Virus record (IMG/VR): IMGVR_UViG_3300030001_000003
Span: 1-42,874 of that record
DNA length: 42,874 nt
Direction: 5' to 3' (one strand)
From: a virus
This document shows positions 5,933 through 21,891 of the stretch, piece by piece (positions within the stretch are counted from its first letter, which is position 1; each line of letters opens with the position of its first letter). Under the pieces are notes generated by a model that saw only the letters and a program-made list of their open reading frames with translations, searched no databases and was not told the DNA's origin. A program made the position numbers and the translations under genes.

Positions 5933-8900
5933 TCAAAATGGTATATCATTTCCTTCCGGCACCTTTTCCCCTTTTGCATTCACTTCCACATTCCGCTCAA
6001 AGTCAACATCAATTAACCCTTTAAGAATGTTGTAATTAAACATATAAGCCGATGTGATACTGCTTTTTTGCTTCATTTTCATGCGGGCAAAATTGCTGAC
6101 GTTCACCGATTCACCATCCGGGGCCACAGTAGCATCATTCCCACTGATATCCATTTCAGCTTCCTCCCATTTAAACCTGCAGGAGTTGGTTAGTCCGATA
6201 TAGGCCTGATGACTTTCAAAGTATGATTTAAGCGACTGTCTGGATAAAGACTCATCTTTACCAATGGTGGACGAATAAAGCGAGTATACAGCCTCAAATG
6301 AGATATACAGTACTTTGGTGTCCAGCGGTAGATCTACTTCCTCAGTCTTTTTAGAACTCATCATCCGGGTTACACGGATTGACGGGTTAATCTTAATTTC
6401 ACGGCCAATTTTAATCTTATTGTGTGTAATCAGCGTGGATATTGTCTGGAAGTAAGTAGAAAGTTTATTGGTGCTGGATATCCGTTCCAATTGGTTCAAT
6501 ACTTTCTTTTCAGCTATCGGTGCAAATTCCAGGTAAGTAAATGGAAGTTTCAAATGCGGTGCATGTTCTTCCAGGAGCCGGCAGGTAGCAGTCATTAACG
6601 CACAGGCATTAATAATACGCGTCATACCTTCGGTATTGGTCACTGATATCCTCACGGATTCTTTCAGCTTCTTGGTTTCCTCACTCAGTATCGTCAGGTA
6701 TTTTTTTTCAAATATCGAACGCAATTCAAGTACCTGGAGTAATACGTTCGAAAGACCGGTCTTTTCATGGCCCTTTAATTTATCAAACAATTCAGTATCT
6801 TCCTCCGTGAAATCTCCCCCATTCCTATGAGGTACATCACACATAATACAACGGTTACTGAGTGCACCATCATCCTGCTGGGCAGCCTCCTGGCCTAATA
6901 ATATAATACTGGCATTAATGGCCGAGCTGTCAAGTTGTTTAGAGTTTACATCCTTCACTTTTATACGGCCTTCACCGTCGAGGGTTGCAGCCTTTAATCC
7001 CTGAAACTTGGATTTTGAAATGTCTCGGTCATTGTACTCTTCCATAACCACCGGCACATTGCGGATTGATTCCAGGATCATGGAGAACCCGGCATCCGAA
7101 CCAATATTTAAATTGAATGCCGGTGTGGTATCGGCCATGTACAGGTTACGGATACTTTCAGCTATCTGGCTCTTTCCTGAGCTGGTAGGACCTATAAAAA
7201 ACAATGCCGTGAAGTAACGCCTCATTTCAAAGATATAGTCCCTAAAAGCGCAGGTAATAGCGAATAATATCGCCCATTTTCCATTGTCACCGATATTGTA
7301 TACCCGGTTCATGAGTCCGCTCCAATCTTCGAAGCTGATTTGTTTTTCAATGGGGATATCACGGTACACCAGGTTACGCGCCTGGTTGAAAGTTGTATTC
7401 TCACCTTCCTCCGAAATACGGATCTTTGAGAATACCGGTGAGTAATAATTTTCTTCGTTATGGCTTACCAGTCCCAATTCGTCTACGGGTTCAATTTTAT
7501 ATTCATTATCTACTTTGTGGTAGATGGCATTACCAAAAGCAAAGAAACCTTTTGGGTGTTGTCCGAAGGTGCGGATAGCCCGGCAATACCGGAACCCGTA
7601 ACTCATGGTCATCCAAATACGCTTGTATTGGTCCATATTCCCGAAGAAATTGTAAGGCCCTTCATTCACCAGTTTTTCATGAACTTTCGGTAATCCTGCA
7701 AATACGCTTGATTTCCATTCCACATATCGATCTAACTTAGGATCTAAATGGCAAAGCTGGATAACACGCTTATTGTTGGCATCGTCATTCTCATTATCAT
7801 AAACATGGAGTAATGGTTTAATATAAAAATCGGTAATGCTGGAAAAACTTCCACCGGTTTGATTCCTGAACATGTAGCTGCAGAACCTTCCTTTTTTATC
7901 AGCCAATGGGTAGAATCCCCATCGTGTACAATTATCGGATAGTACCTTGTCATTCTGAATATAATCCGGAATAATCTCAGCATCGATATTCAGCGTGTCA
8001 CTCATCGCCCCCAGGCGTTGGTTATCGAGTAAAGTTTTATCTTTTTTCTTTGCCAGGAATGGTTTCAACACTTTATCCAGGGCAGTGACTTTAAGTCCTA
8101 ACTTTTTGGAATACTCATCAATCATTACTACCCTGACGGTAGCTTCAATATCTGATATTACTTCAGCACAACGGCCAATGATCTCACCTTTCTTTGATCC
8201 ATCAATAGTATTTGATAATATATCTTTATACTGATCGGTATAATAGTCACAAAAACTTTGTGAAATAGGTTTATCGTTTATCTCACAATCAACGGAGATA
8301 TCAAACCCGTTTTTGTGCATATTTTTCAATATTACCAATCCTTTTGGTTCTCCGGATTCTTCAGTAGGAGCAATATACTTACTATCCTTAACGGTTAGCT
8401 TGCTGATTTTAGACCTGAGCGACTGGACATCGGTCATTGTTGGAGTTCCAACTACCAATATCATCGGAGTTTCTGAAAAATCGTTGACAAAATCTTTCTG
8501 GTTAAATACAATCTCGCAATCCTGATCTTCATCAGCTTCCAATAATTCAACAGCATCCTCTATTCCGTAAAACCCATGTTTCCATTTATCAACCTTGAGT
8601 TCCTTAGTTGGTTTTATACGTTCTTTGATAATGGTACTGGTAGTTTCAAATGTCATGGCCAACCTGGTGGCATAACGTTCTCTCAGGTATTTATCAGGTA
8701 CCACCGAAACACATTCACAAATCAGATCCAGCAGCTGGGTATTTTCAAAGTCCGAAGCATCTGCCACTTTCTTTGCTTCAAAAAAGTAATCTATAAAATC
8801 AAGCTCCCTATTCCGGAGTAATATATTCAGATCCTGATTAATCGTTGCCTTTGCAAAGTCGTCAGGGTCCTTACCGTCCGGAAGAAGTATGGCCTTTACA

Positions 8901-9892
8901 TCAAACCCATGAGCCAGTAATGTTTTGGCATTTGATATACTGGCTTTCAGTCCCGCTGAATCGGGATCATACATCATCACCACTGTATTGGTGAACCTTT
9001 TCAATAGCCTGGCCTGTGCATCAGTCAACGCAGTTCCTGATCCTGCAATAACGTTATGTACTCCACGCTGAGCTACCGAAACCACATCAAACTGGCCTTC
9101 CAGTAAATAGACCTTATTTTGTTTTGAAATTGACTCCTTAGCCTGGAAAAGTCCGAACAATACCTGACCTTTATTAAATACCATAGTATCTCCTGAATTC
9201 AGGTATTTGGCAGCTTTGGCCGTATTATCCGTTATTCTTCCGGTGAAACCTACCGGCCGGCCGTAATTATCCAGGTATGGGAATGTGATACGCTGACGAA
9301 ATACATCGTATTGGAATTTCTTTTCGTCGCTAATGGCCGTCATTCCGGAAGCAAGTAATAGATCCAAGTTAAAACTACGTTTTGGAAAATCTCTCGTTAT
9401 CTGGTTATCTGACTGAGCATACCCTATTTGATAAAGTTCGCGTATTTCATCGTTGATTTGTCTTTCTATCCGGACATAATCATTGGCGTCCTTAAATGAT
9501 CTCAGGTTATCGGAAAATTGTTTATTACTTTCAGATAGTACCAGGTAAACCGATTCCCGTTGCCTTTCTTTAGCTATTTCTTCAGCTGTCTGAGGGAGTA
9601 CCGGCAATTCAATATGATACTGGTTTGCCAGTGACTTAACAGCTTCAATAAATGAAATATGTTCATTCTCTTTCACAAAATTGATCACGTCACCATGCGC
9701 ATTACATGCAAAGCACTTGTATATTCCCTTTTGGGGAGAAACGGTCAGTGATGGCGCCTTATCGCTGTGAAACGGGCATATGCCAATGTGATTTCTGCCA
9801 TGTTTATGAAGGGTTATTGATCTACCAATTACTTCAACTATATCAGCTCTATCTTTAACTTTAGTAATTATATCCTGTGAAATTTGACTCAT
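5933..9892 (-). CDS. DnaG-type primase fused to a helicase-like ATPase
   Basis: 1319 aa from the first ATG (9892); the frame extends upstream only with a TTG. Residues 39-63 are the CHC2 zinc finger (CPFH ... CFAC) and 195-220 the primase core. The TOPRIM domain (about 261-345) shows Glu265 in LLEGQFD, AGSGTALT and the DPDSAG metal-binding motif (309-314). A long linker follows. Near 890-1010 is a P-loop ATPase with Walker A GPTSSGKS (901-908) and a Walker-B-like VPVVMEEYND (946-955), of the type seen in phage/virus replicative helicases. The C-terminal 200 aa is probably a winged-helix or initiation region. One chain could prime and unwind, making this the central replication protein. Members with this fusion are unusually long. 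Confidence 0.9.
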   Translation of the reverse strand: MSQISQDIITKVKDRADIVEVIGRSITLHKHGRNHIGICPFHSDKAPSLTVSPQKGIYKCFACNAHGDVINFVKENEHISFIEAVKSLANQYHIELPVLPQTAEEIAKERQRESVYLVLSESNKQFSDNLRSFKDANDYVRIERQINDEIRELYQIGYAQSDNQITRDFPKRSFNLDLLLASGMTAISDEKKFQYDVFRQRITFPYLDNYGRPVGFTGRITDNTAKAAKYLNSGDTMVFNKGQVLFGLFQAKESISKQNKVYLLEGQFDVVSVAQRGVHNVIAGSGTALTDAQARLLKRFTNTVVMMYDPDSAGLKASISNAKTLLAHGFDVKAILLPDGKDPDDFAKATINQDLNILLRNRELDFIDYFFEAKKVADASDFENTQLLDLICECVSVVPDKYLRERYATRLAMTFETTSTIIKERIKPTKELKVDKWKHGFYGIEDAVELLEADEDQDCEIVFNQKDFVNDFSETPMILVVGTPTMTDVQSLRSKISKLTVKDSKYIAPTEESGEPKGLVILKNMHKNGFDISVDCEINDKPISQSFCDYYTDQYKDILSNTIDGSKKGEIIGRCAEVISDIEATVRVVMIDEYSKKLGLKVTALDKVLKPFLAKKKDKTLLDNQRLGAMSDTLNIDAEIIPDYIQNDKVLSDNCTRWGFYPLADKKGRFCSYMFRNQTGGSFSSITDFYIKPLLHVYDNENDDANNKRVIQLCHLDPKLDRYVEWKSSVFAGLPKVHEKLVNEGPYNFFGNMDQYKRIWMTMSYGFRYCRAIRTFGQHPKGFFAFGNAIYHKVDNEYKIEPVDELGLVSHNEENYYSPVFSKIRISEEGENTTFNQARNLVYRDIPIEKQISFEDWSGLMNRVYNIGDNGKWAILFAITCAFRDYIFEMRRYFTALFFIGPTSSGKSQIAESIRNLYMADTTPAFNLNIGSDAGFSMILESIRNVPVVMEEYNDRDISKSKFQGLKAATLDGEGRIKVKDVNSKQLDSSAINASIILLGQEAAQQDDGALSNRCIMCDVPHRNGGDFTEEDTELFDKLKGHEKTGLSNVLLQVLELRSIFEKKYLTILSEETKKLKESVRISVTNTEGMTRIINACALMTATCRLLEEHAPHLKLPFTYLEFAPIAEKKVLNQLERISSTNKLSTYFQTISTLITHNKIKIGREIKINPSIRVTRMMSSKKTEEVDLPLDTKVLYISFEAVYSLYSSTIGKDESLSRQSLKSYFESHQAYIGLTNSCRFKWEEAEMDISGNDATVAPDGESVNVSNFARMKMKQKSSITSAYMFNYNILKGLIDVDFERNVEVNAKGEKVPEGNDIPF

Positions 9893-9902
9893 AATATTAT
9901 TT

Positions 9903-10217
9903 TCAAGTAAATTGATACGTTTTGTTATTCCCGGTTCCAAATTTTTGAGGCCTTATTGTAGTTGTAAAAGGAAAATCATCCTTATTTACTTTATCCAATG
10001 CATCTTTAATTGGTTGCGCATTGGTAAAAAATTTACGTTCTACATTTTCATATTTTATTCTTACAACATACATGCCTTCACCGAATTTTGTTTTTACATC
10101 CGGTGAAAAATCAAGAATTTCTATTTCGCAATTTGTGACATCTGTTATTGATATTTGTTGTACCGGGAATATGTTTTTTTCATCAGGTTTTATTCCTAAA
10201 TCAGAAAATTTCTTCAT
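9903..10217 (-). CDS. Hypothetical beta-rich protein between the RT and primase-helicase
   Basis: 104 aa from ATG 10217 (MKKFSDLGIK). An upstream in-frame start at 10253 is possible but would overlap the reverse transcriptase by 53 bp instead of 17 bp. The sequence alternates strands and short helices (QQISITDV, YVVRIKYEN, FTTTIRPQKF). It has no four-helix pattern, so it does not look like the DGR accessory protein Avd. Its position 10 bp before the replication gene suggests a replication or ssDNA-related helper. Function unknown. Confidence 0.65.
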   Translation of the reverse strand: MKKFSDLGIKPDEKNIFPVQQISITDVTNCEIEILDFSPDVKTKFGEGMYVVRIKYENVERKFFTNAQPIKDALDKVNKDDFPFTTTIRPQKFGTGNNKTYQFT

Positions 10218-11187
10218 GTTTAAGTATCTTTTTTTGTAAGTGTTTAGAATCACAATGTTTGGCCCATCCTATGTGTGGTGCGATCAGCATTTTATATTGT
10301 TTCGGATCCAGTTCCTTCTTGTTTAGTTTTGCAGCTTTCCGACAGAACCGAACTTTAATTGATTTACGCATTAGTATATGCGTGTGTCTGAATATATATC
10401 CAACGAAATCAATCCCACGTGCTGAAACCGGAAATACCTGGTAATTGCGTTTTAATTTCAAGTTTAATTGATTTGTAAGGTAATCATCAATGTCAACCAA
10501 TAAATCGTGTAAATAAGGCTTATCTGCTGCCAGTATCACCACATCATCAGCGTATCGGTAGTAATACTTCACTTTCTTTATTTCCTTCATATAATGATCA
10601 AAATAACTCAGATAAAGATTTGCGAAAAATTGAGAAAGATAATTACCTATTGGAACACCAGGTGCACTTTCAATAATTTCATCAAGTAATTTTAAAATCC
10701 GTTTATCCTTTATCTTTTTTCTGATAATACACTTCAGTATTTCATGATCAATATTTGGGTAGAACTTCTTAATATCAAGTTTCAAACAAAAAGTAGTATT
10801 TTCGATATCGGTTAAATCACATTTCAAATCTTTTAAAACAGCATGGATCCCTTTACCTTTAATGCATGCATAACTGTGCGAAATAAAGACTGAAACCCAT
10901 ACAGGTTCTAAAATATTCATTATAGCATGATGTACTACCCGATCTCGAAACGGAAGTCTGAAAATTTCCCGTTCCTTTGGTTCGTAAATTTTAAAGATAC
11001 TGTATTCAGAAGTCTTATAAATTCCGGATATCAATTCGTCATACAAATGATTAATGTTTCGCTCAACATTTTTCTCAAAAATCTTCACACCATATTGCCC
11101 GGATTTACCTTTCCGGGCTTTCTGGTATGCAAGCATCAAATTATCTTTTGTTACTACCTTGTCAAATAAATCATTTATTCTTTTCAT
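10201..11187 (-). CDS. Reverse transcriptase of a diversity-generating retroelement
   Basis: 328 aa from ATG 11187; the open frame extends upstream through the template repeat only from a TTG. RT motifs are in order: RLPFRDRVVHHAI (77-89), LDIKKFYPNIDH (137-148), PIGNYLSQFFANLYL (179-193, the SQ motif typical of DGR enzymes), catalytic YADD (212-215) and a C-terminal GIDFVGY. It copies the template repeat RNA with errors at adenines, and the cDNA replaces variable repeats in the targets. The template repeat lies 103 bp upstream and two target genes lie beyond it. No maturase or nuclease domain is present, which argues against a group II intron. No Avd gene is visible. Confidence 0.93.
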   Translation of the reverse strand: MKRINDLFDKVVTKDNLMLAYQKARKGKSGQYGVKIFEKNVERNINHLYDELISGIYKTSEYSIFKIYEPKEREIFRLPFRDRVVHHAIMNILEPVWVSVFISHSYACIKGKGIHAVLKDLKCDLTDIENTTFCLKLDIKKFYPNIDHEILKCIIRKKIKDKRILKLLDEIIESAPGVPIGNYLSQFFANLYLSYFDHYMKEIKKVKYYYRYADDVVILAADKPYLHDLLVDIDDYLTNQLNLKLKRNYQVFPVSARGIDFVGYIFRHTHILMRKSIKVRFCRKAAKLNKKELDPKQYKMLIAPHIGWAKHCDSKHLQKKILKHEEIF

Positions 11188-11289
11188 ATGCCTGGATTTC
11201 AAAAATGGAGCTTTCTCGTTGGATACTAACACCAGTTGAAAAATTAGTCGTTTTTTGCTAAGAAGCAAGGCCTTTGTCTTTTTAATTAC

Positions 11290-11367
11290 CAGTTGGGAAC
11301 TGGAACCTGCATTCGAATTCGTATTATCGTAATTCGTATTGTTCAAACCGAACGCTGAAGCAGAACC
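11290..11367 (-). repeat. DGR template repeat (TR)
   Basis: This 78-bp segment aligns without gaps to the variable repeats at 11471-11548 and 11874-11951. In the sense strand it is rich in AAT/AAC codons (21 adenines) and would read GSASAFGLNNTNYD onwards. All 17 differences to the second repeat, and 11 of 12 internal differences to the first, are at template adenines. It lies between the stop of the nearer target and the RT, and is in the RT frame. Confidence 0.95.
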
Positions 11368-11392
11368 AGCGAAGACAAACAGCCCATAATTT

Positions 11393-11770
11393 TTATCCTA
11401 TCTGAATCTCTTTCCAGACATCCTTAAACTGAGTTGCTGAATACTCTGCCGTTTCTTCGTCAAAATTGACCAGACGGGAACCGGAACCCGCATGCGAATT
11501 CGTAATATCGTAGATCGTATGGCGCAAACCGAACGCCGAAGCAGACATTCTAAACCAAGCACGCCATTTTTTTTCTGACCAATTATCCCAATCCGGTTTT
11601 CTTCCTTCATTTAAAGCTTCAGTTATAACTATTCCATTGTATATATTTTCAAAATATGATTTTAGATCTTCAGGTAAATTCGAAAAATCAACAGTTGGTC
11701 TACCTGCTATTTGAAATGCTTCTTCTACTGTTACAGGTCTTTTTTTCTTCAATTCTTTTTCTTTTTTCAT
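11393..11770 (-). CDS. DGR target protein 1 (nearer the template)
   Basis: 125 aa. The N-terminal domain (about 15-65: VEEAFQIAGRPTVDF ... VITEALNEGRKPDW) is paralogous to the neighbouring target. The variable region spans about 75-100 (ASAFGL ... AGSGSRL), and a conserved helical tail follows (YSATQFKDVWKEI). Unlike classic C-type-lectin targets, the variable stretch is not at the very C-terminus. The pattern Y/W-x-x-F-x-x-(variable)-AGSGSRL-tail recalls a DGR target family common in Bacteroidales. It has no signal peptide, coiled coil or tail-fibre features, so it is probably not a tail adhesin. The ligand is unknown. Confidence 0.85.
   Translation of the reverse strand: MKKEKELKKKRPVTVEEAFQIAGRPTVDFSNLPEDLKSYFENIYNGIVITEALNEGRKPDWDNWSEKKWRAWFRMSASAFGLRHTIYDITNSHAGSGSRLVNFDEETAEYSATQFKDVWKEIQIG
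11471..11548 (-). repeat. DGR variable repeat 1 (VR1)
   Basis: Aligned to the template, 11 differences fall at template adenines (for example AAC to CGC, AAT to CAT, CAA to CGT). One is a T-to-C change inside an AAT codon (AAT to ATC). The first codon (ATG against GGT) appears to lie outside the exchanged segment. Fewer changes than in VR2 leave the template word GATxTTACGAATTCG largely intact. Confidence 0.92.
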
Positions 11771-11795
11771 TGTATTTATTTGTTAAAGTGAAATA

Positions 11796-12278
11796 TTAGA
11801 GTGATAACATGTCTCTGAACTCATTTTTAAATCTTTCTCCAATTATTTTGGCATTATCCGATTTTAGTACGCTCAGGCGGGAACCGGAACCCGCAGCCGA
11901 ACCCGCACTACCGAAATCCGCATCGTACAAACCGAACGCCGAAGCAGAACCATTATTCAAAAAATAAGGATAATGTCTGCGTTTGTCTTCGTTATAAATA
12001 TCAATTCTTTCACCTTCGTTGAATGCTTCTGTTACTACGAGGCATTTATACACTGATTTAAAGAAGTCACGTAAATCAGTTGGTACACAATTAAAGTCCG
12101 GTACTGAAGGTCGTCCTGTCTCAGTTATGGCATCTTCAATAGTGAATATCCGGTCTTCAACTGACGTTTTAAAAAAATCTTTTCCAAATGTGTCTTCAAG
12201 TAATTGCTTGAATTCAGGAGAGGCCGTTTTATACATGCTTCTTGCCTTACTTTCTTCTAACTGTACTGTCTTTTTCAT
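11796..12278 (-). CDS. DGR target protein 2 (distal)
   Basis: 160 aa. It has the same architecture as its neighbour: a helical N-terminus with DAITETGRPSVPDF and VVTEAFNEGERID, then YPYFLNNGSASAFGL, a variable stretch (YDADFGSAGSA) and AGSGSRL, and a helical tail (IIGERFKNEFRDML). It is 35 aa longer at the N-terminus. It sits 25 bp upstream of target 1 and was probably produced by tandem duplication. It is transcribed leftward with the template and RT. No export signal is seen. Recognition of a host or phage cytoplasmic partner is possible but not shown. Confidence 0.85.
   Translation of the reverse strand: MKKTVQLEESKARSMYKTASPEFKQLLEDTFGKDFFKTSVEDRIFTIEDAITETGRPSVPDFNCVPTDLRDFFKSVYKCLVVTEAFNEGERIDIYNEDKRRHYPYFLNNGSASAFGLYDADFGSAGSAAGSGSRLSVLKSDNAKIIGERFKNEFRDMLSL
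11874..11951 (-). repeat. DGR variable repeat 2 (VR2)
   Basis: There are 17 differences from the 78-bp template, all at template adenines (for example ACG to GCG, AAT to GGT, GAT to GGT, CAA to CGC). Every C, G and T of the template is preserved. This is direct sequence evidence for adenine-directed mutagenic retrohoming and shows the element has been active. Confidence 0.95.
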
Positions 12279-12307: not shown

Positions 12308-12694
12308 TTATTCATTTTCAAACATTGTCATTTGACGTATTTCGTGTATGCCTTCCAATGTCACATCGAAATAATCAGCAATCCGTTTTAATTCTGCATC
12401 TTTAATAACTTCACTACCTTTATAAATCGACCAGTATCGTTTCTGTCCAATTTCAACATCATTAAAGAATGACCTAGTAGGAGTGAAGCATCCGACATCC
12501 TTAAATTTCTTTTTCAGTACCTGAAGTAATAAATTATCTTTCTGAACGCATAACCGTGGATCATTACGGTATCGGTGGATAAATAGGTTTAATGCACGTT
12601 CTGTCCTGCCCAGGTCCTTCGCTATCTGTGGAAGTGGCTTATCATGGTAATGCTTGAACAGGTATCTTTTTTGGGAAATGGACCAGGGTTTCAT
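12308..12694 (-). CDS. Putative DNA-binding protein (HTH/SANT-like N-terminus)
   Basis: 128 aa. The N-terminus KPWSISQKRYLFKHYHDKPL followed by QIAKDLGRTERAL (23-35) fits a Myb/SANT-like or resolvase-type HTH, with tryptophan then an IA-x-x-LGR recognition turn. The C-terminal part (DAELKRIADYFDVTLEGIHEI) looks like a second helical module. It lies just upstream of the DGR targets and may regulate the early operon. The start overlaps the preceding gene by 53 bp; no later Met preserves the HTH. Confidence 0.65.
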   Translation of the reverse strand: MKPWSISQKRYLFKHYHDKPLPQIAKDLGRTERALNLFIHRYRNDPRLCVQKDNLLLQVLKKKFKDVGCFTPTRSFFNDVEIGQKRYWSIYKGSEVIKDAELKRIADYFDVTLEGIHEIRQMTMFENE

Positions 12695-13854: not shown

Positions 13855-14415
13855 CTATTTCAAGTTGTTTTTATTCCAGTAATCAATTAGCTGTGATGTC
13901 TTATGAAATCCAAACCGTACAAGCATATTCTGCCGGTGTTTTTTTACGGTATGTACCGATAAACATAATGAGTCAGCCACCGTTTGTTCATCAAGTCCAA
14001 GAACCAATAACCTCAATATGTTTATTTCAGCTTTACGAATGTTGGTTGACCGTACCGGATAACACGCTTCTTTCAGATTACATCCTTCGCATTCACCCCG
14101 CTGGGCGCAATAACAGTGTTCCATGTTTTGATTTCCGTTACTATCAATATCCATTTGATAGTCCGTCTGTCCGTAATGTAACTTGATCCACATCCGGGCT
14201 ATAAGAAATTCAAAATACATACGGTTCAAATTACTTTGCGCGTATCTTTTTTCAAGACATATTAATGCTTCCGGCCATTCTTCACTCAAATCTTCCAAAT
14301 GGGCAGTAATAATATGCCGGTGAGTCTGATTCAGGATATATGCCTTTTCTTCCATCTCGGTTACAAGTACTTCCCCTTTGTGATTTACCACATATTCAAT
14401 TTCGTATAATTTCAT
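13855..14415 (-). CDS. LuxR-type HTH protein with Cys cluster
   Basis: 186 aa. The C-terminal 55 residues match a LuxR/GerE HTH: AEINILRLLVLGLDEQTVAD then SLCLSVHTVKKHRQNMLVRF. In the middle, CYCAQRGECEGCNLKEACYP (about 99-118) has five or six cysteines that could hold zinc or an Fe-S cluster. No receiver domain is present. The start overlaps the upstream gene by ATGA. It is the second gene read leftward from the repressor switch region, so it probably controls early transcription. Similar proteins occur in Bacteroidales mobile elements. Confidence 0.75.
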   Translation of the reverse strand: MKLYEIEYVVNHKGEVLVTEMEEKAYILNQTHRHIITAHLEDLSEEWPEALICLEKRYAQSNLNRMYFEFLIARMWIKLHYGQTDYQMDIDSNGNQNMEHCYCAQRGECEGCNLKEACYPVRSTNIRKAEINILRLLVLGLDEQTVADSLCLSVHTVKKHRQNMLVRFGFHKTSQLIDYWNKNNLK

Positions 14416-14740: not shown

Positions 14741-15151
14741 ATGAAATTTAGTAGCCTGAAATTTAGCAACTTAATTGAAGCAGAAAAAAAACGGAAAAGG
14801 ATAACCAATAACCAGGTTATGGCTATTGCGATGGGTATTTCTAAGCAGACTATCGAAAATGTGATGAATGGGATTACTGTTCCGTCAGTTGTTAAACTTT
14901 GTGAGATAGCAACGTACTTGAAAGTAGATATAAATGAGTTTTTTGAATATGATAAGGGGGAAATACAAAACAATATAGTGTCTTCACTTAATCCTGAATA
15001 TATGAAGGAAAAAGATGAAAATCCCTATAAACTGCTTTTCGAGATGCAAAAGCAAATTAATGATATAATAATTGAAAATGCAGACTTAAAAGTGGAAAAT
15101 GGACGTCTAAAAAACGGATATGCACCCGTCCAGGATGCGAACGCAGGATAA
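14741..15151 (+). CDS. XRE-family (CI-like) repressor
   Basis: 136 aa. Residues about 8-65 form an XRE HTH: NLIEAEKKRKRITNNQVMAI, then GISKQTIENVMNGITVPSVVKLCEIATYLKVDINEFF, with the recognition helix around SKQTIENVMNG. The C-terminal 60 aa is a probable coiled coil (LLFEMQKQINDII, ENADLKVENGRLK) that could dimerise, in place of a LexA-type peptidase. Without that peptidase, induction would not be by RecA-driven self-cleavage. It reads rightward next to the integrase and opposite the early genes, the usual lysogeny-switch layout. Confidence 0.82.
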   Translation: MKFSSLKFSNLIEAEKKRKRITNNQVMAIAMGISKQTIENVMNGITVPSVVKLCEIATYLKVDINEFFEYDKGEIQNNIVSSLNPEYMKEKDENPYKLLFEMQKQINDIIIENADLKVENGRLKNGYAPVQDANAG

Positions 15152-15611: not shown

Positions 15612-15658
15612 CTCTTTTCTTCTAATCATTTTTACGTTATGCGTTGATAATCATTTCA

Positions 15659-16852
15659 ATGCATAATAAAAAAATGCCAACAACTTCCAAAAATCAAAAC
15701 AGTTCGCTCAAGGAGATACTTTCGTATTCTCCCCCAAAACTGCACACAGGTGTCGAATGGTACATTGGCTTTAATGCCTTCGATCCATCAAAAGGAGCCA
15801 TGCATCGCAAAAAAATAAAGTTAAATTTTATCGAAAAGATCGGAGAACGTCGTAAATATGCCGATGGATTGATAAAGAGGTTGAATGTAAAACTCGAAAA
15901 TGGTTGGAATCCATGGGTTGAAAGTGAAAATGGGAAAGCATACCATACTTTTGATGAAGTATGCGAACATTACAAAAAATATATTGAAAAATTACACCTT
16001 GATGGAGTTCACAGAAAAGATACGTATGTTTCTAATATGTCTTATATGAGGAATATCCAACAATTCAATAATCAACGAAAGAATAAGATCACCTATATTT
16101 ATCAGTTTGATGGGCTATTTATTGATGATATGTTAGAGTACATTTATATTGAAAGGGATAATTGTGCGCAAACCCGTAATAATTACCTTGGTTTTGCGCG
16201 AACGTTCAGTTCCTTCCTTGTGCAACACCGATATGTAAAAGTTAAACCATCAGAAGGGATGCCAATGATCAGCAAAAAGAAGATTAAGAAGCAAAGGATC
16301 ATCATTGCGGAGAAAGATATGATTAAGTTGAAAGAATACCTGGATCTAAAAAATAAAAACTACCTGTTAGCATCCTATTTACTTCATTACTGTTTTATAC
16401 GGCCAACTGAAATGAGCCAACTCAAGATTGAAAATATATCATTGATCAATCAGACATTATATATTGATGAAAGTATTTCAAAAAACCGTACTTCCGGAGT
16501 TATTACATTGCCGGCCAAAGTAATTCATTTAATGATTGAATTGAAATTATTCGATTACCCTGGTGACTATTACATTTTTTCAGATAAATGTAAACCAGGT
16601 AAAATAATGAAAAGTGAAAAACAATTCCGTGATTTTTGGCAGAACCATGTCCGTAAGGACTTGAAATTTACAAAATCATACAAATTCTATTCACTCAAAG
16701 ATACAGGAATTACCAATATGCTACGTAAAATGGATAAGATTAGTGTTCGGGACCAAGCACGACATGCCAGTATTCTAACTACCGATATGTATACGCCTCA
16801 TGACCTTCAAGAAGCAAATCATCTGATAATAAATCATGACGGTGATTTCTAA
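15659..16852 (+). CDS. int: Tyrosine recombinase (phage integrase)
   Basis: 397 aa from the first ATG; the frame extends upstream only with a TTG. It has an N-terminal SAM-like core-binding domain (about 95-205). The catalytic domain contains Arg in YCFIRPTEMSQLK, a beta-hairpin lysine region KNRTSGVITLP, YSLKDTGITNML (Asp in place of the first His), QARHASILTTDMYTP with the second His and the nucleophilic Tyr near the C-terminus. This pattern is usual for Bacteroidales mobile-element integrases. It supports a temperate life style with site-specific integration. It reads rightward, convergent with the tail-tip gene. Confidence 0.92.
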   Translation: MHNKKMPTTSKNQNSSLKEILSYSPPKLHTGVEWYIGFNAFDPSKGAMHRKKIKLNFIEKIGERRKYADGLIKRLNVKLENGWNPWVESENGKAYHTFDEVCEHYKKYIEKLHLDGVHRKDTYVSNMSYMRNIQQFNNQRKNKITYIYQFDGLFIDDMLEYIYIERDNCAQTRNNYLGFARTFSSFLVQHRYVKVKPSEGMPMISKKKIKKQRIIIAEKDMIKLKEYLDLKNKNYLLASYLLHYCFIRPTEMSQLKIENISLINQTLYIDESISKNRTSGVITLPAKVIHLMIELKLFDYPGDYYIFSDKCKPGKIMKSEKQFRDFWQNHVRKDLKFTKSYKFYSLKDTGITNMLRKMDKISVRDQARHASILTTDMYTPHDLQEANHLIINHDGDF

Positions 16853-16888: not shown

Positions 16889-18643
16889 TTATTTAATCAT
16901 CCTATAAAACGTTCCTTTTACAGTTGTTTGCTTCTCTGATTTTATCCTTTCAAACGTTATTGGCATATATTTTAGGTTATTGATGATAAATATATTATTT
17001 GCTCGGATATCAGGGCCATCGATCATGTAGAACGTATATTCTTTATCTGTATCTATAACATTTTGTATTTTATAGTCAGTTACGATTCCAAGCGGTCCTC
17101 TTAATCTCAAAGATTCTGGAGCTTGAAAGAATCCATTAGCATATGATGGTTCCATAATAATATCATTATGGGATAATGGATAATTAGTTTCTGTGACTTG
17201 TCCTATTGAATCGTAACTTTTACACAATCTGATTCTACCGGTATATAATGAAACTTCAATTATATTAATCCTGGAAACATCCTTTTCTCCTTTTTCGACT
17301 AAATCAATAAATCCAACCTCCGCCGGTATAAAGTAATCATTACTACTTAAAGGCATCTGATAAGACGCATTAGTAGTTCCAGATAATGCAGGTATTGTAA
17401 CATAATTTACAAACATTGCAGATGGACATAATTTAAGAGTAAGTATTTTATCTCGAGAATCACCGTATGGAGTAAATTTATTTATCAAACACATAATTGT
17501 AGTACCACTTTGTTCGGAAGTCAGTGGTATTTTCGGTGTTAAGCCACCAGAATTTCTCGAAAAATAATCGTAAGTAGTATCAATATTCCTGTATATCATT
17601 AATTTATTTTCATTAATAGAGCTTGGGAAAAATGGATTATGATATTCAATTAGTTTGCATTTATTTAAAATATCATCATTTAAATTATGGTATTTAAAAT
17701 AATCATTATCAGGAAAATCATATGCTACAGTAGTATAATCAAATCTTGAATTTTTAGGAGTCTGTGAAAAATCCCTCGTAAAGCTATCTAAAACTTTATT
17801 TATAATAACTTCCTTTTTATTTGAGATATTTGATTGAAGTCTTACTATTGATATTGATTTATCCACAGCATTCACATAAAACAAAACGTTAAAGAAACAT
17901 TCTATTGCATCAATAAATTCGGATATTGTCATGTCAGGTAGTACATCTGCATAGTTTAATGATTTCACCGAATTTACTAAAAACATTTTTTTTGCACGTG
18001 TATCTGATTCTAATATATTTGACTTAAGCGAATAACCCAATAACTCAGGAAGTCGGTTGATATAGTACAGTAAATAGGGTTGCATTACTATATCACCACT
18101 TATAGCGTTCATATCTAAGTTATAATCATTTGCAATTACGTTACCAAGTTTAACTGGTGTACAAACATAATTCTGCATCCAGGACGTATGAAAATAAAAC
18201 GGCGGTACCGGCGTATTTTCATATTTTCCATAACCAGGGTAATTCAACGATTGAAATGCTTTTCCAAAATCAATTGCAGTTTCAGTTCCCCACCCTTCCA
18301 GTTCCCATATTTTCTTTTCGTTTTTGGCAATATAATTCAGTTCTGAATTACCTGCCACAAACTGAAATATCACATCGATATCCGTATTAGTTGAAATAAT
18401 GATAGTACCGGAACGTGGAGAACCGTCAATTATCATCCGTGCCGGTGCCGTTTTGGTGATGGTTGCCAGATTAATCCGGTTCAGGAATCCAAAGACTATT
18501 GCATTTTGTGGATTACGAAGCGATAAGGTTATATCCAGGGTAAATTCACCGTTATTGGTGATCTCCGGATTTTCTTCTATCAGGGTAAATGAAAAATCAG
18601 AAGGAAGAACAACTTCCCGTTCGTTTACAAATAATTGTATCAT
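16889..18643 (-). CDS. Tail-tip/baseplate protein downstream of the tape measure
   Basis: 584 aa, coupled to the tape measure gene by ATGA. It is beta-rich, starting MIQLFVNEREVVLPSDFSFT. The N-terminal 100 aa resembles a distal-tail-like domain and a middle segment (MTISEFIDAIECFFNVLFYV, about 236-255) is helical. In siphoviruses the gene after the tape measure encodes a distal tail or tail-associated protein, which suits this one. It is the last gene of its unit, before the bidirectional terminator. Specific function not recognised. Confidence 0.7.
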   Translation of the reverse strand: MIQLFVNEREVVLPSDFSFTLIEENPEITNNGEFTLDITLSLRNPQNAIVFGFLNRINLATITKTAPARMIIDGSPRSGTIIISTNTDIDVIFQFVAGNSELNYIAKNEKKIWELEGWGTETAIDFGKAFQSLNYPGYGKYENTPVPPFYFHTSWMQNYVCTPVKLGNVIANDYNLDMNAISGDIVMQPYLLYYINRLPELLGYSLKSNILESDTRAKKMFLVNSVKSLNYADVLPDMTISEFIDAIECFFNVLFYVNAVDKSISIVRLQSNISNKKEVIINKVLDSFTRDFSQTPKNSRFDYTTVAYDFPDNDYFKYHNLNDDILNKCKLIEYHNPFFPSSINENKLMIYRNIDTTYDYFSRNSGGLTPKIPLTSEQSGTTIMCLINKFTPYGDSRDKILTLKLCPSAMFVNYVTIPALSGTTNASYQMPLSSNDYFIPAEVGFIDLVEKGEKDVSRINIIEVSLYTGRIRLCKSYDSIGQVTETNYPLSHNDIIMEPSYANGFFQAPESLRLRGPLGIVTDYKIQNVIDTDKEYTFYMIDGPDIRANNIFIINNLKYMPITFERIKSEKQTTVKGTFYRMIK

Positions 18644-21600
18644 CGTTTCCCGTTATTAACCAGTTTATTATAATCATCCAATTTTTTAGCGACCCCTTTT
18701 TCTCCAGATATCGTCAAGTTTGTTTCTATCCCGTTATCCAGATGATCATTTAGCCGGTTAACTGCCGAAACAACTGCCAACATATAATCTCCCGTTGAAG
18801 TTGGTTCATTTCCTTTACGTGAATTTGATCCGGTGGAAGTGGATATGCTATCCGAATACGTAGGTGACATGCGTAGGGCCTTTGATATCTGTTCTTTTGT
18901 GAGCGAGGAAACAGTACCGTTTTTCTGCGCTTCGTTGATTACATCAAACATTGGCCTTAGATTTGGATTCTGAACGGCCTCCATGGCACCAACAAACTCA
19001 CCTCCATGAACAATGCCCGTAGGGGTATACTTTCCTACATTAGGAGTAAAACCCGTTGTACCGGTCCATAGATTTTGTACTGCTGCCCTTTGTTGTACTG
19101 CAACCGCAATTTGTGCAGCCCCCATAACGCCCATCAATAAAGCCAACGGAATATTGGCACCAGCTTTGATTACCTGAAGCGCGGTTTCTGCAATGATCTT
19201 AGCAACATTAATCGCAAAATCAACATCGGCATACTTCTTTTTAATTGCTTTCTTTTCTTCCTCTATCTGGGTTTCAAGTTCTGTTGTATCCTGTCCGGCT
19301 GCTTTTGCTGCCTTTAGTTGCGCTGCATACTTATTATCCACCGACATTGTTTCAGCTTCCTGAAGGGATACTGACAGGTTTGAGGCGGCATTGGCAATAT
19401 CCGCTATGTCCTGTGCTAATTGTTCGGCTTTAGCCAGTTTAATTTTAGCAACATCAGTTTCATATCGTTTGATGGCTTTTTCTTTATTACCACCATTTTT
19501 AATAATCTCTGCAAGTTCTTTGGCATGAGCTTCTTTTAATACCTGCAGATCATCGTCAAACTCTTTTCGTTTATCCTTGAAAGTATTTATACCATACTTT
19601 TTTTCAATATCAACGATTGTTTTTTCAATTTCCTTTTTATCGGATATTCCTTTTTTAAGTATTTTCTTTTCTGCTTCGTGCTGTTCTTTTTGCGCTTCCT
19701 CTATTGCTTTATTGGATGCCAGAATAGCAGAAAGTTTTTCATCATCCGATTTAAACTGGAAGTCAAGTATATCACGTGCATGTTCCTGTGCAGCATCAAG
19801 CCTTGCATCGGCCAACGTTTTATCAAGTGCCAATATCGAATTATCATACTTATCCTGGGTAATGATTCCATTATCGAAGTTTTGATTTAATTCTTCACGC
19901 GTAAAATTATCAAAAATTACAATCGCATTTATTCGTTCATCCTGCAACGTTTTCAGCGATTTAAGTTTCAGTTTTTCCGCTTCGTCCTGTTGCTTCAAAT
20001 CAATGGTTGCAATCCTATCCTTTGCGTCCAGGTACTCTTTATCGCTGGTATTATAAAGATTTAGTTTCCATACTAACCCTTCACGTTCCACATTTATCAT
20101 ATTTTGATTATATACCTCCTCACTATCCAGATTATCCAAATGACGTTTTTTGAATTTAGTTTGTTCTTTTAATATCCATTTATCCATTTCGGCCAGTGAT
20201 TCTTTCTGAACATCTACATCACCTGAAGTATTTTTAGGTCCTGTTGTCGCTGGCTTACCGGTTATTTTAGCGGAATTTCTTAACCCTCCAAGTGCATTCG
20301 TATAGGCTACCGATTTTTTTACAGATAGAGTTAATGTATCAAGAAAGTCTTGTTTAGGTTTAATCACGGAAAACCAACCTGCATTATTTTGTTTATTTAA
20401 TGCAATTTCGGCTTGTAATTGCTTCATTGTTGCCTGATCTCTCTGATAAATACTTCTTTCTAAAGCTATTTTATCATTAATAAATTTAAGTTGGTCCTTT
20501 TGCGCAGGCATAAGCTTTTTCAATGATTCAATTCTTAACTTAGTACTTCGTTCTATAGAAGTCTCTTCGTTCTGTGCCGCGTTTTTAGTCAGAGTACTAA
20601 ATGCATTTAGCGCCTCGGTTCCAAATTGTATTATTCTTCTTGTAGCATTGGCAAGTGGACCTTTACCATCTTCCAGGGCTAACAGGAAAGCATCCCATGA
20701 CGACGACATATTATCCACATCTCCGGAAAGATTATCTGTAGCGATAAGCATTTGCTCCATGGCAACTCCGGTTCCGGTAACTTGTGTATTTAATTCTTCA
20801 AACCGTGTTTTATTTTGAAATAATATCTGGGCAAGTCCAAAAAATTCAGTACCAAATTTCTTTTGTAAAGCGATATTATCACCGGATATACTTTGGTTAT
20901 TATCAATAGCTTTATTCAAGTCAAAAAGTCCGTTGGTATAATTTTTTGTATCTCCCTGTAGTTTTACAAGTACCCCTTTAAATCCGGTACCGGCAGTTTC
21001 GGCTTTGATGCCTTTTTCGCCGAATAGTTCCATTACGGCTACCGTCTGTTCAAGAGTCATATTGGCCGATTTGGCAATGGTACCTACCTTACTTACTGAT
21101 TCTCCCAGGTAATCTACTTCAACGGCTCCAAACTTAGAACCTGCAGCCAGAACGTTGATAGTCCGGTCACTTTCCATAGCCGAAAGTCCAAACTGGTTCA
21201 TAATGGTAGTTACGGCCTTAGTAGACTCAGTAAGGTCCATACCCGTTGCCTTACTTAATGTCAATACCGATTGCGTAACATCCTTCAATGCACTTACATT
21301 ACTCAGTAACTCAGGCTTGGCACTACCTACCAGTTTCATAGCTGTTACAATTTCTACAGCCGATTTACCATATTCTTTTGCCAAATCGATAGCATGATTT
21401 TTAAGGTAATCAAGATCCTTTCCTGTAGCTCCAGTAAGGGCTGATAATTCGGAAACAGACTTGGCAAATTCCATGGAGTGCTTCACTAAAGCAACAAAGG
21501 CGGTACCCACTGTAGCAATCACGCCTAATCCAAGCATGAGTTTATTTTTAAAAAGCATCTCAATGCTATCACCAACTCCGGTTAATGAACGTCCGATCCA

Positions 21601-21891
21601 ACCCATTGCACCCGGAAGTTCAGACATCCTGTTCATAAAGCCATCAAGACCCTTAGTGGTATTGGCATATTGTGAAGCGACGTCAGCCAGTTTATCTTTA
21701 TGCTCGTTTAAAATCGACTTCAAATATCCTATCTTTTGCCCTTGTTTCACATAATCATCTGCACCAATAGTCATATTAGCCTGCTCATTGCTGAGTTTCC
21801 TCATTTCGCCAGTAATACCCTTCACAGAGTTCGTTACTTCAGATCCATCAATGAAAATAGAAATCCCTCTTTTTGCTATTTTATCAGCCAT
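18640..21891 (-). CDS. Tail tape measure protein
   Basis: 1083 aa. Residues about 130-330 match the TP901-type tape measure core (SALTGATGKDLDYLKNHAID, TLSKATGMDLTESTKAVTTI, GTGFKGVLVKLQ). Long charged coiled coils fill about 450-870 (repeated KK/EE-rich helices), and a hydrophobic stretch near 905-950 (AINVAKIIAETALQVIKAGA, PLALLMGVMGAAQIAVAV) may act as the membrane-interacting part. At about 0.15 nm per residue this length would set a tail of roughly 160 nm (inference). It indicates a long-tailed siphovirus-like particle. It is the second gene of the unit starting at the promoter 22416-22451. Confidence 0.93.
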   Translation of the reverse strand: MADKIAKRGISIFIDGSEVTNSVKGITGEMRKLSNEQANMTIGADDYVKQGQKIGYLKSILNEHKDKLADVASQYANTTKGLDGFMNRMSELPGAMGWIGRSLTGVGDSIEMLFKNKLMLGLGVIATVGTAFVALVKHSMEFAKSVSELSALTGATGKDLDYLKNHAIDLAKEYGKSAVEIVTAMKLVGSAKPELLSNVSALKDVTQSVLTLSKATGMDLTESTKAVTTIMNQFGLSAMESDRTINVLAAGSKFGAVEVDYLGESVSKVGTIAKSANMTLEQTVAVMELFGEKGIKAETAGTGFKGVLVKLQGDTKNYTNGLFDLNKAIDNNQSISGDNIALQKKFGTEFFGLAQILFQNKTRFEELNTQVTGTGVAMEQMLIATDNLSGDVDNMSSSWDAFLLALEDGKGPLANATRRIIQFGTEALNAFSTLTKNAAQNEETSIERSTKLRIESLKKLMPAQKDQLKFINDKIALERSIYQRDQATMKQLQAEIALNKQNNAGWFSVIKPKQDFLDTLTLSVKKSVAYTNALGGLRNSAKITGKPATTGPKNTSGDVDVQKESLAEMDKWILKEQTKFKKRHLDNLDSEEVYNQNMINVEREGLVWKLNLYNTSDKEYLDAKDRIATIDLKQQDEAEKLKLKSLKTLQDERINAIVIFDNFTREELNQNFDNGIITQDKYDNSILALDKTLADARLDAAQEHARDILDFQFKSDDEKLSAILASNKAIEEAQKEQHEAEKKILKKGISDKKEIEKTIVDIEKKYGINTFKDKRKEFDDDLQVLKEAHAKELAEIIKNGGNKEKAIKRYETDVAKIKLAKAEQLAQDIADIANAASNLSVSLQEAETMSVDNKYAAQLKAAKAAGQDTTELETQIEEEKKAIKKKYADVDFAINVAKIIAETALQVIKAGANIPLALLMGVMGAAQIAVAVQQRAAVQNLWTGTTGFTPNVGKYTPTGIVHGGEFVGAMEAVQNPNLRPMFDVINEAQKNGTVSSLTKEQISKALRMSPTYSDSISTSTGSNSRKGNEPTSTGDYMLAVVSAVNRLNDHLDNGIETNLTISGEKGVAKKLDDYNKLVNNGKR

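Follow-up and report, generated by a model that had tools for sequence, protein, structure and literature searches.

A DGR directed at a tandem pair of small, non-tail proteins of the PHROG 11581 family in a temperate phage and its relatives

Introduction

The window analysed here, which is the whole 42,874-base IMG/VR virus record of a temperate tailed phage, encodes a DGR with two targets, both of them small proteins that belong to PHROG 11581, a family without known function. We consider it slightly better than an even chance (about 0.55) that this DGR is dedicated to non-virion proteins, namely soluble, probably cytoplasmic, early variable binders in phage-host conflict. Tropism switching is the usual explanation for phage DGRs; if the reading proposed here is true, phages use DGRs against intracellular host defences too, and not against surface receptors alone. 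That a common type of DGR has small non-tail proteins as its only targets, and that their VRs turn over among near-identical phages, implies strong diversifying pressure beyond adsorption; were the ligand a host defence protein, this would represent a counter-defence system evolving by programmed hypermutation.

Results

All components of the DGR lie on the minus strand. The reverse transcriptase (RT; 10201-11187, 328 aa) matches RVT_1 (E=1.8e-16) and phrog_1423 (E=2e-124), contains the motifs IGNYLSQ and YRYADD, and is approximately 36% identical to Brt of BPP-1; the ATG at 11187 is its likelier start, because an ORF starting with TTG and reaching to 11346 overlaps the TR. The TR (11288-11368, about 78-81 nt with 21 adenines) is the donor side of adenine-restricted differences in two repeats. 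VR1 (11469-11545) lies within the proximal target gene (target 1; 11393-11770, 125 aa) and VR2 (11874-11952) within the distal target gene (target 2; 11796-12278, 160 aa), the product of which has an additional N-terminal helical part. A complete DGR of RT, TR and two tandem targets had been claimed by the sequence-only reading, and each element was found where that reading had placed it.

VR2 differs from the TR at 17 positions over 79 nt, all of them TR adenines (hypergeometric p=7e-14), and VR1 at 12 positions over 77 nt, 11 of them TR adenines (hypergeometric p=5e-7), the sole exception being a T>C change; these recounts agree with the figures first reported, and when pooled 28 of 29 differences fall on TR adenines. 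No VR adenine stands at a differing position in either repeat, and so the direction of transfer, from TR to VR, is clear. The TR was also slid along both strands of the whole window, with the full 81 nt scored and the ends included; by this measure VR2 and VR1 have two and five non-adenine mismatches out of 60 respectively, the next best place has 29-30, and no further VR is present in the window. Translated in the VR frame, the TR is asparagine-rich (SASAFGLNNTNYDNTNSNAGSSSQL), as is usual for DGRs. Among the genes tested around the RT, none matched an Avd-type protein.

The two targets are homologous to one another (hhalign E=7e-55) and both match the PHROG 11581 profile (E=5e-9 and 1e-8), which bears out their earlier description as paralogues; 56 of 57 proximal-type sequences match the same PHROG. 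Searches of Pfam, NCBIfam and PDB profiles with the targets produced nothing usable, no tail family was matched, and the sole PADLOC match was not significant (E=0.03). The window's own targets gave no tblastn match in the phage collection, although a consensus-like relative did. AlphaFold2 models, built from 53 and 57 aligned sequences, are confidently helical in their N-terminal part and form further helices at the C-terminus (pLDDT 81 for target 1 and 84 for target 2), with a small VR region that is of low confidence and, in target 2, beta-rich. Foldseek matched neither target to a fold in the PDB, the VR loops of the models having pLDDT <50, and against BFVD the only matches above noise were uncharacterised phage proteins, several of them from crAss-like viruses. 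No match to an Ig-like or C-type lectin fold, for which a search had been suggested, was obtained, but the VR segment of approximately 33 aa is clearly akin to its counterpart in C-lectin-type tail targets (33 residues aligned, hhalign E=3e-8). We infer that the family presents a C-lectin-type VR hairpin on a different, helical scaffold.

On the minus strand the order, 5' to 3', is a possible HTH gene, target 2, target 1, TR, RT, a gene of 104 aa and a primase-like gene. The last of these (5933-9940) encodes a replication protein of 1335 aa with matches to Zn_ribbon_DnaG (E=9e-35), DNAG_N and Toprim, and the first (12308-12694), upstream of the targets, encodes a possible DNA-binding protein that matched HTH_23 at E=0.003, under the Pfam cut-off. 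The original placement of the targets between DNA-binding and replication genes holds in outline with two amendments: the DNA-binding label derives from a sub-threshold match, and the 104-aa gene (9903-10217) parts the primase-like gene from the RT. Elsewhere the window encodes a repressor-like gene (14741-15151) and an integrase (15644-16852), both on the plus strand, a tape measure on the minus strand (18640-21891), an endolysin and a possible head protein. A regulator-like protein at 13855-14415 (phrog_10300) matches CARF-type PADLOC models weakly (E=1e-4).

In related phages, the families found within three ORFs of the cassette are mainly DNA methyltransferase, helicase, primase, polymerase, exonuclease, recombinase and terminase families, and the 25 most frequent PHROGs listed for each side include no tail family. 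The targets had been described as lacking a signal peptide, a stalk and any link to the tail operon, and this description stands: a crude hydropathy test detected an N-terminal hydrophobic stretch in 0 of 121 family members, the genes sit in the early/replication block, and the family is not a tail family. Both family and position thus support the targets as non-tail proteins, in the window and in related phages, while their place in the operon suggests that they are early.

A scan of IMG/VR with the RT recovered 177 relatives, of which 80 were kept; in most of these 80 loci a search for repeats revealed TR/VR pairs. Target counts come from the 63 loci in which more than 1.3 kb precedes the RT. 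Small targets number two in 44 of these, three in nine and one in three (53 of 63 carry two or three), one large tail-type target (434-846 aa, with a TR of 111-116 nt) is present in six, and in one locus no target was detected. Where there are two targets, the usual order is a long target (~160 aa), a short target (~125 aa), TR and RT. The window's targets are hence not the exception that they were taken for: many relatives have a cassette with two targets, and for Quimbyvirus a non-structural DGR target within a defence island was published in 2021 (PMC8008677). Three side observations concern individual records. At L023:2580-3785 two nearly identical short targets accompany a third, longer one, and the short copies look identical outside the VR, suggesting a recent duplication. 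In the record of L062, a third small target (L116:3166-3477) with 11 adenine-only mismatches over 66 nt lies approximately 18 kb from its own cassette, showing that dedicated cassettes can have remote targets too. L008 and L009, the contigs whose RTs are most similar to that of the window (91%), break off some 300 bp upstream of this gene, where the TR and VRs are located, which is consistent with assembly failing at hypervariable repeats.

The gene that follows the RT belongs to PHROG 19665 in the window and in 42 of 52 such genes scanned; from its sequence associations, the protein is probably a DGR accessory factor, a candidate other than Avd. A profile of PHROG 19665 type matched at 74 of the 80 RT loci, including five of the six tail-type loci, but was built partly from those loci and is not independent of them. 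The PHROG count is independent, as is a fusion in the phage BT-TP2, where a PHROG 19665-like part forms the C-terminus of the RT protein (L091:40881-42251). LoVEphage encodes a PHROG 19665-like protein near its RT (L110:33988-34584).

Five contigs among the relatives (L063, L065, L066, L067 and L074) share more than 99% identity across 4-6 kb; the TR and the 180 nt upstream are identical throughout, and one VR or another differs by 11-13 bases. Between L065 and L066, one VR has 13 differences (13 at TR adenines), the next has 11 (nine at adenines) and the third is identical, while between L063 and L074 the third VR has 12 differences, all at TR adenines, and the second is identical. Since these near-identical relatives differ almost only at TR adenines within single VRs, the DGR is active in that group, and since the changes proceed VR by VR, each small target is rewritten on its own. 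Across ten VR comparisons from this and other groups of relatives, 108 of 113 differences lie at TR adenines; these comparisons are less biased than the tally over all scanned VRs (1996 of 2048 differences at adenines), which is biased by scoring and was not used as a test. Recent activity is thereby shown for the relatives; no near-identical copy of the window that includes its targets was found. The suggestion that the similarity of TR and VRs reflects a decayed or chance repeat, with no DGR, is refuted: the adenine restriction of VR2 alone contradicts it, as do the intact RT and the independent turnover of VRs among near-identical relatives, and we found nothing in its favour.

Ten loci in bacterial genomes, identified by a scan with a single protein, encode relatives; they belong to Bacteroidota, for example Elizabethkingia, Pedobacter, Chryseobacterium and Flavobacteriaceae, and a TR with two or three VRs was present in eight of the nine that were scanned. 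A cassette carried in bacterial genomes might supply the host with an immune receptor, the variable proteins of a prophage acting against other phages to the benefit of the cell, and DGR-based prokaryotic immunity has already been proposed (PMC10053308). We hold this to be very unlikely for the window, where the genes lie in the lytic early block away from the repressor, and where the targets have no effector domain and no significant PADLOC match. Furthermore, the crAss-like Buchavirus members that carry the family are not known to be lysogens.

PHROG 11581-like genes recur as the remote second target of DGRs that mutate tails. In five phage groups (BT-TP2, Versailles, LoVEphage, crAss-like Buchavirus and one IMG/VR phage, L024) a single TR serves both a tail-side gene and a distant gene of this kind, the family member lying far from the tail-side cassette. 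In BT-TP2, a phage of Bacteroides thetaiotaomicron, a 2262-aa gene ends in one VR and a small gene contains the other, with 14 and 13 adenine mismatches to the TR and no others; the small gene runs across the ends of the record, with HTH genes beside it and a primase-like gene downstream. In this record (L091, PQ571279.1) about 0.13 kb is repeated at both ends, inside the small target gene, which is therefore split and unannotated there; the repeat looks like an unresolved circular assembly overlap. In Versailles the tail VR has 12 adenine mismatches and one other, and the small-gene VR 15 and one, the small gene being situated between NinB and a replisome organizer. The 'tail protein' label of Versailles WAK79127 was set aside, given that it stems from an automatic HHpred hit, that NinB and the replisome organizer flank the gene and that the same TR has a separate tail target. 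LoVEphage shows 17 adenine mismatches and one other at the tail-side VR, and 19 and none in its small gene (L110:19869-20453), a member of the window's target family that stands beside methylases and a tRNA ligase. For the small VR of Buchavirus cr52_1, cr56_1 and cr60_1, adenine and other mismatches number 12/0, 16/0 and 14/2 over 63-65 nt, and the family member belongs to a block of small ORFs near sigma-W and tmRNA; the gene upstream of the small target in these three is similar in length to the distal target, yet is not a paralogue. The two VRs of L024 have 19/0 and 14/0 adenine/other mismatches, and its small gene occupies an SbcC-RecT-hydrolase-replisome block, the gene names being read from the sequences.

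Use of one TR for the family and for a tail-side target in five phage groups is what might be expected if the small targets were minor virion proteins, either parts of the tail tip or proteins that enter the cell with the DNA, and the system were an ordinary receptor-switching DGR with unusually small targets. The relationship of the VR segment to C-lectin tail targets points the same way, as does the finding that viral DGR targets are mostly tail proteins, in clades 1, 4 and 6 (Roux et al. 2021, PMC8144416). A virion role is nonetheless improbable: in the window and in the neighbourhoods of its relatives the targets are without stalk, signal or position in a tail block, the dual-target phages already possess a large, separate tail target, and ORF 84 of Quimbyvirus was likewise judged non-structural (PMC8008677).

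From the common TR it could also follow that the small protein and the tail adhesin bind the same surface ligand. The small protein might then bind the phage's own receptor class, or incoming tail proteins, within the infected or lysogenic cell and so block competitors, and the occurrence of the cassette in Elizabethkingia, Pedobacter and Flavobacteriaceae, probably as lysogens, would agree with such superinfection or receptor interference. We doubt this explanation, in that a protein with no export signal could reach receptors only before their export, the DGR has no tail target in the window and in most relatives, and the tail and small-protein VRs differ within a single genome (by 13 mismatches in BT-TP2). 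An intracellular role in conflict is favoured instead, on the grounds that in unrelated phages these genes are accompanied by genes for anti-restriction, recombination and replication, and that the dual-target phages already vary their tails separately.

Discussion

According to the mechanism that we propose, the RT, presumably assisted by the 104-aa accessory protein, would reverse-transcribe the TR RNA, inserting random bases opposite adenines, and the resulting cDNA would replace VR1 or VR2, each independently, through RNA-templated retrohoming of the kind known from BPP-1. The products would be two small, soluble, probably cytoplasmic paralogues, each consisting of a helical N-terminal scaffold and one C-terminal hypervariable hairpin of a type otherwise seen in C-lectin tail adhesins. 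Both would most likely be expressed at an early stage of lytic growth, together with the replication genes, and bind quickly changing proteins of the host (or of rival phages) as counter-defence or conflict factors. More tentatively, and at somewhat less than even odds, PHROG 11581 as a whole may be a dedicated, 'antibody-like' hypervariable binder of the infected cell, which shares the TR of the tail adhesin in some phages and, in the clade of the window, has its own DGR and works as an independently varying pair of paralogues. The family is represented in phages that were obtained from cultured Bacteroides and Phocaeicola by induction or isolation (BT-TP2, LoVEphage-like phages and Versailles); as the proteins are small and probably soluble, pull-downs and deletions are feasible, and the role of non-tail phage DGR targets becomes testable in cultivated phages.

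The DGR of BPP-1, which diversifies Mtd, resembles that of the window in its RT, its TR, the C-terminal position of the VR and its adenine-restricted change. It has, however, a single C-lectin tail target and an Avd gene before the TR; in the window, the targets are two small non-tail proteins and the RT is followed by a PHROG 19665 gene. Tentaclin phage DGRs (PMC10743442) also have two different targets each, but both carry C-lectin domains and have been discussed as receptor-binding proteins. The Bacuni phage DGR (PMC8143477) likewise has two targets, one of them distant from the RT; unlike those of the window, both are predicted to be fimbrial-tip-like adhesins, and Avd is present.

A close precedent is Quimbyvirus. 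Of its two VRs, one falls within a non-structural gene surrounded by defence-related genes (methylases, a mutY-like nuclease and a tRNA ligase), and a role in conflict was proposed (Benler et al. 2021, PMC8008677). In LoVEphage the neighbourhood matches, and the small gene belongs to the window's target family; we infer that this gene is ORF 84 of Benler et al. The Quimbyvirus/LoVEphage DGR differs from that of the window in having a tail-side target as well, a single remote target, a TR of about 113-118 nt and an RT reported as frameshifted, whereas in the window the small family alone is targeted, in tandem, from a 78-nt TR. In gut prophages of four species, a recent report describes a second VR that is distal from the RT and near counter-defence genes such as a methyltransferase (Nature 2025, PMC12629997); there, in contrast to the window, a tail target is present. 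Given Quimbyvirus and these distal VRs, a non-structural phage DGR target is not in itself new. In the open-licence literature that we searched, we came across neither a DGR type dedicated exclusively to proteins of this kind nor a report that the scattered distal targets form one family. What the present evidence adds to these known systems is a widespread DGR type devoted only to the PHROG 11581 family, and evidence that scattered second targets of tail-mutating DGRs are members of that same family.
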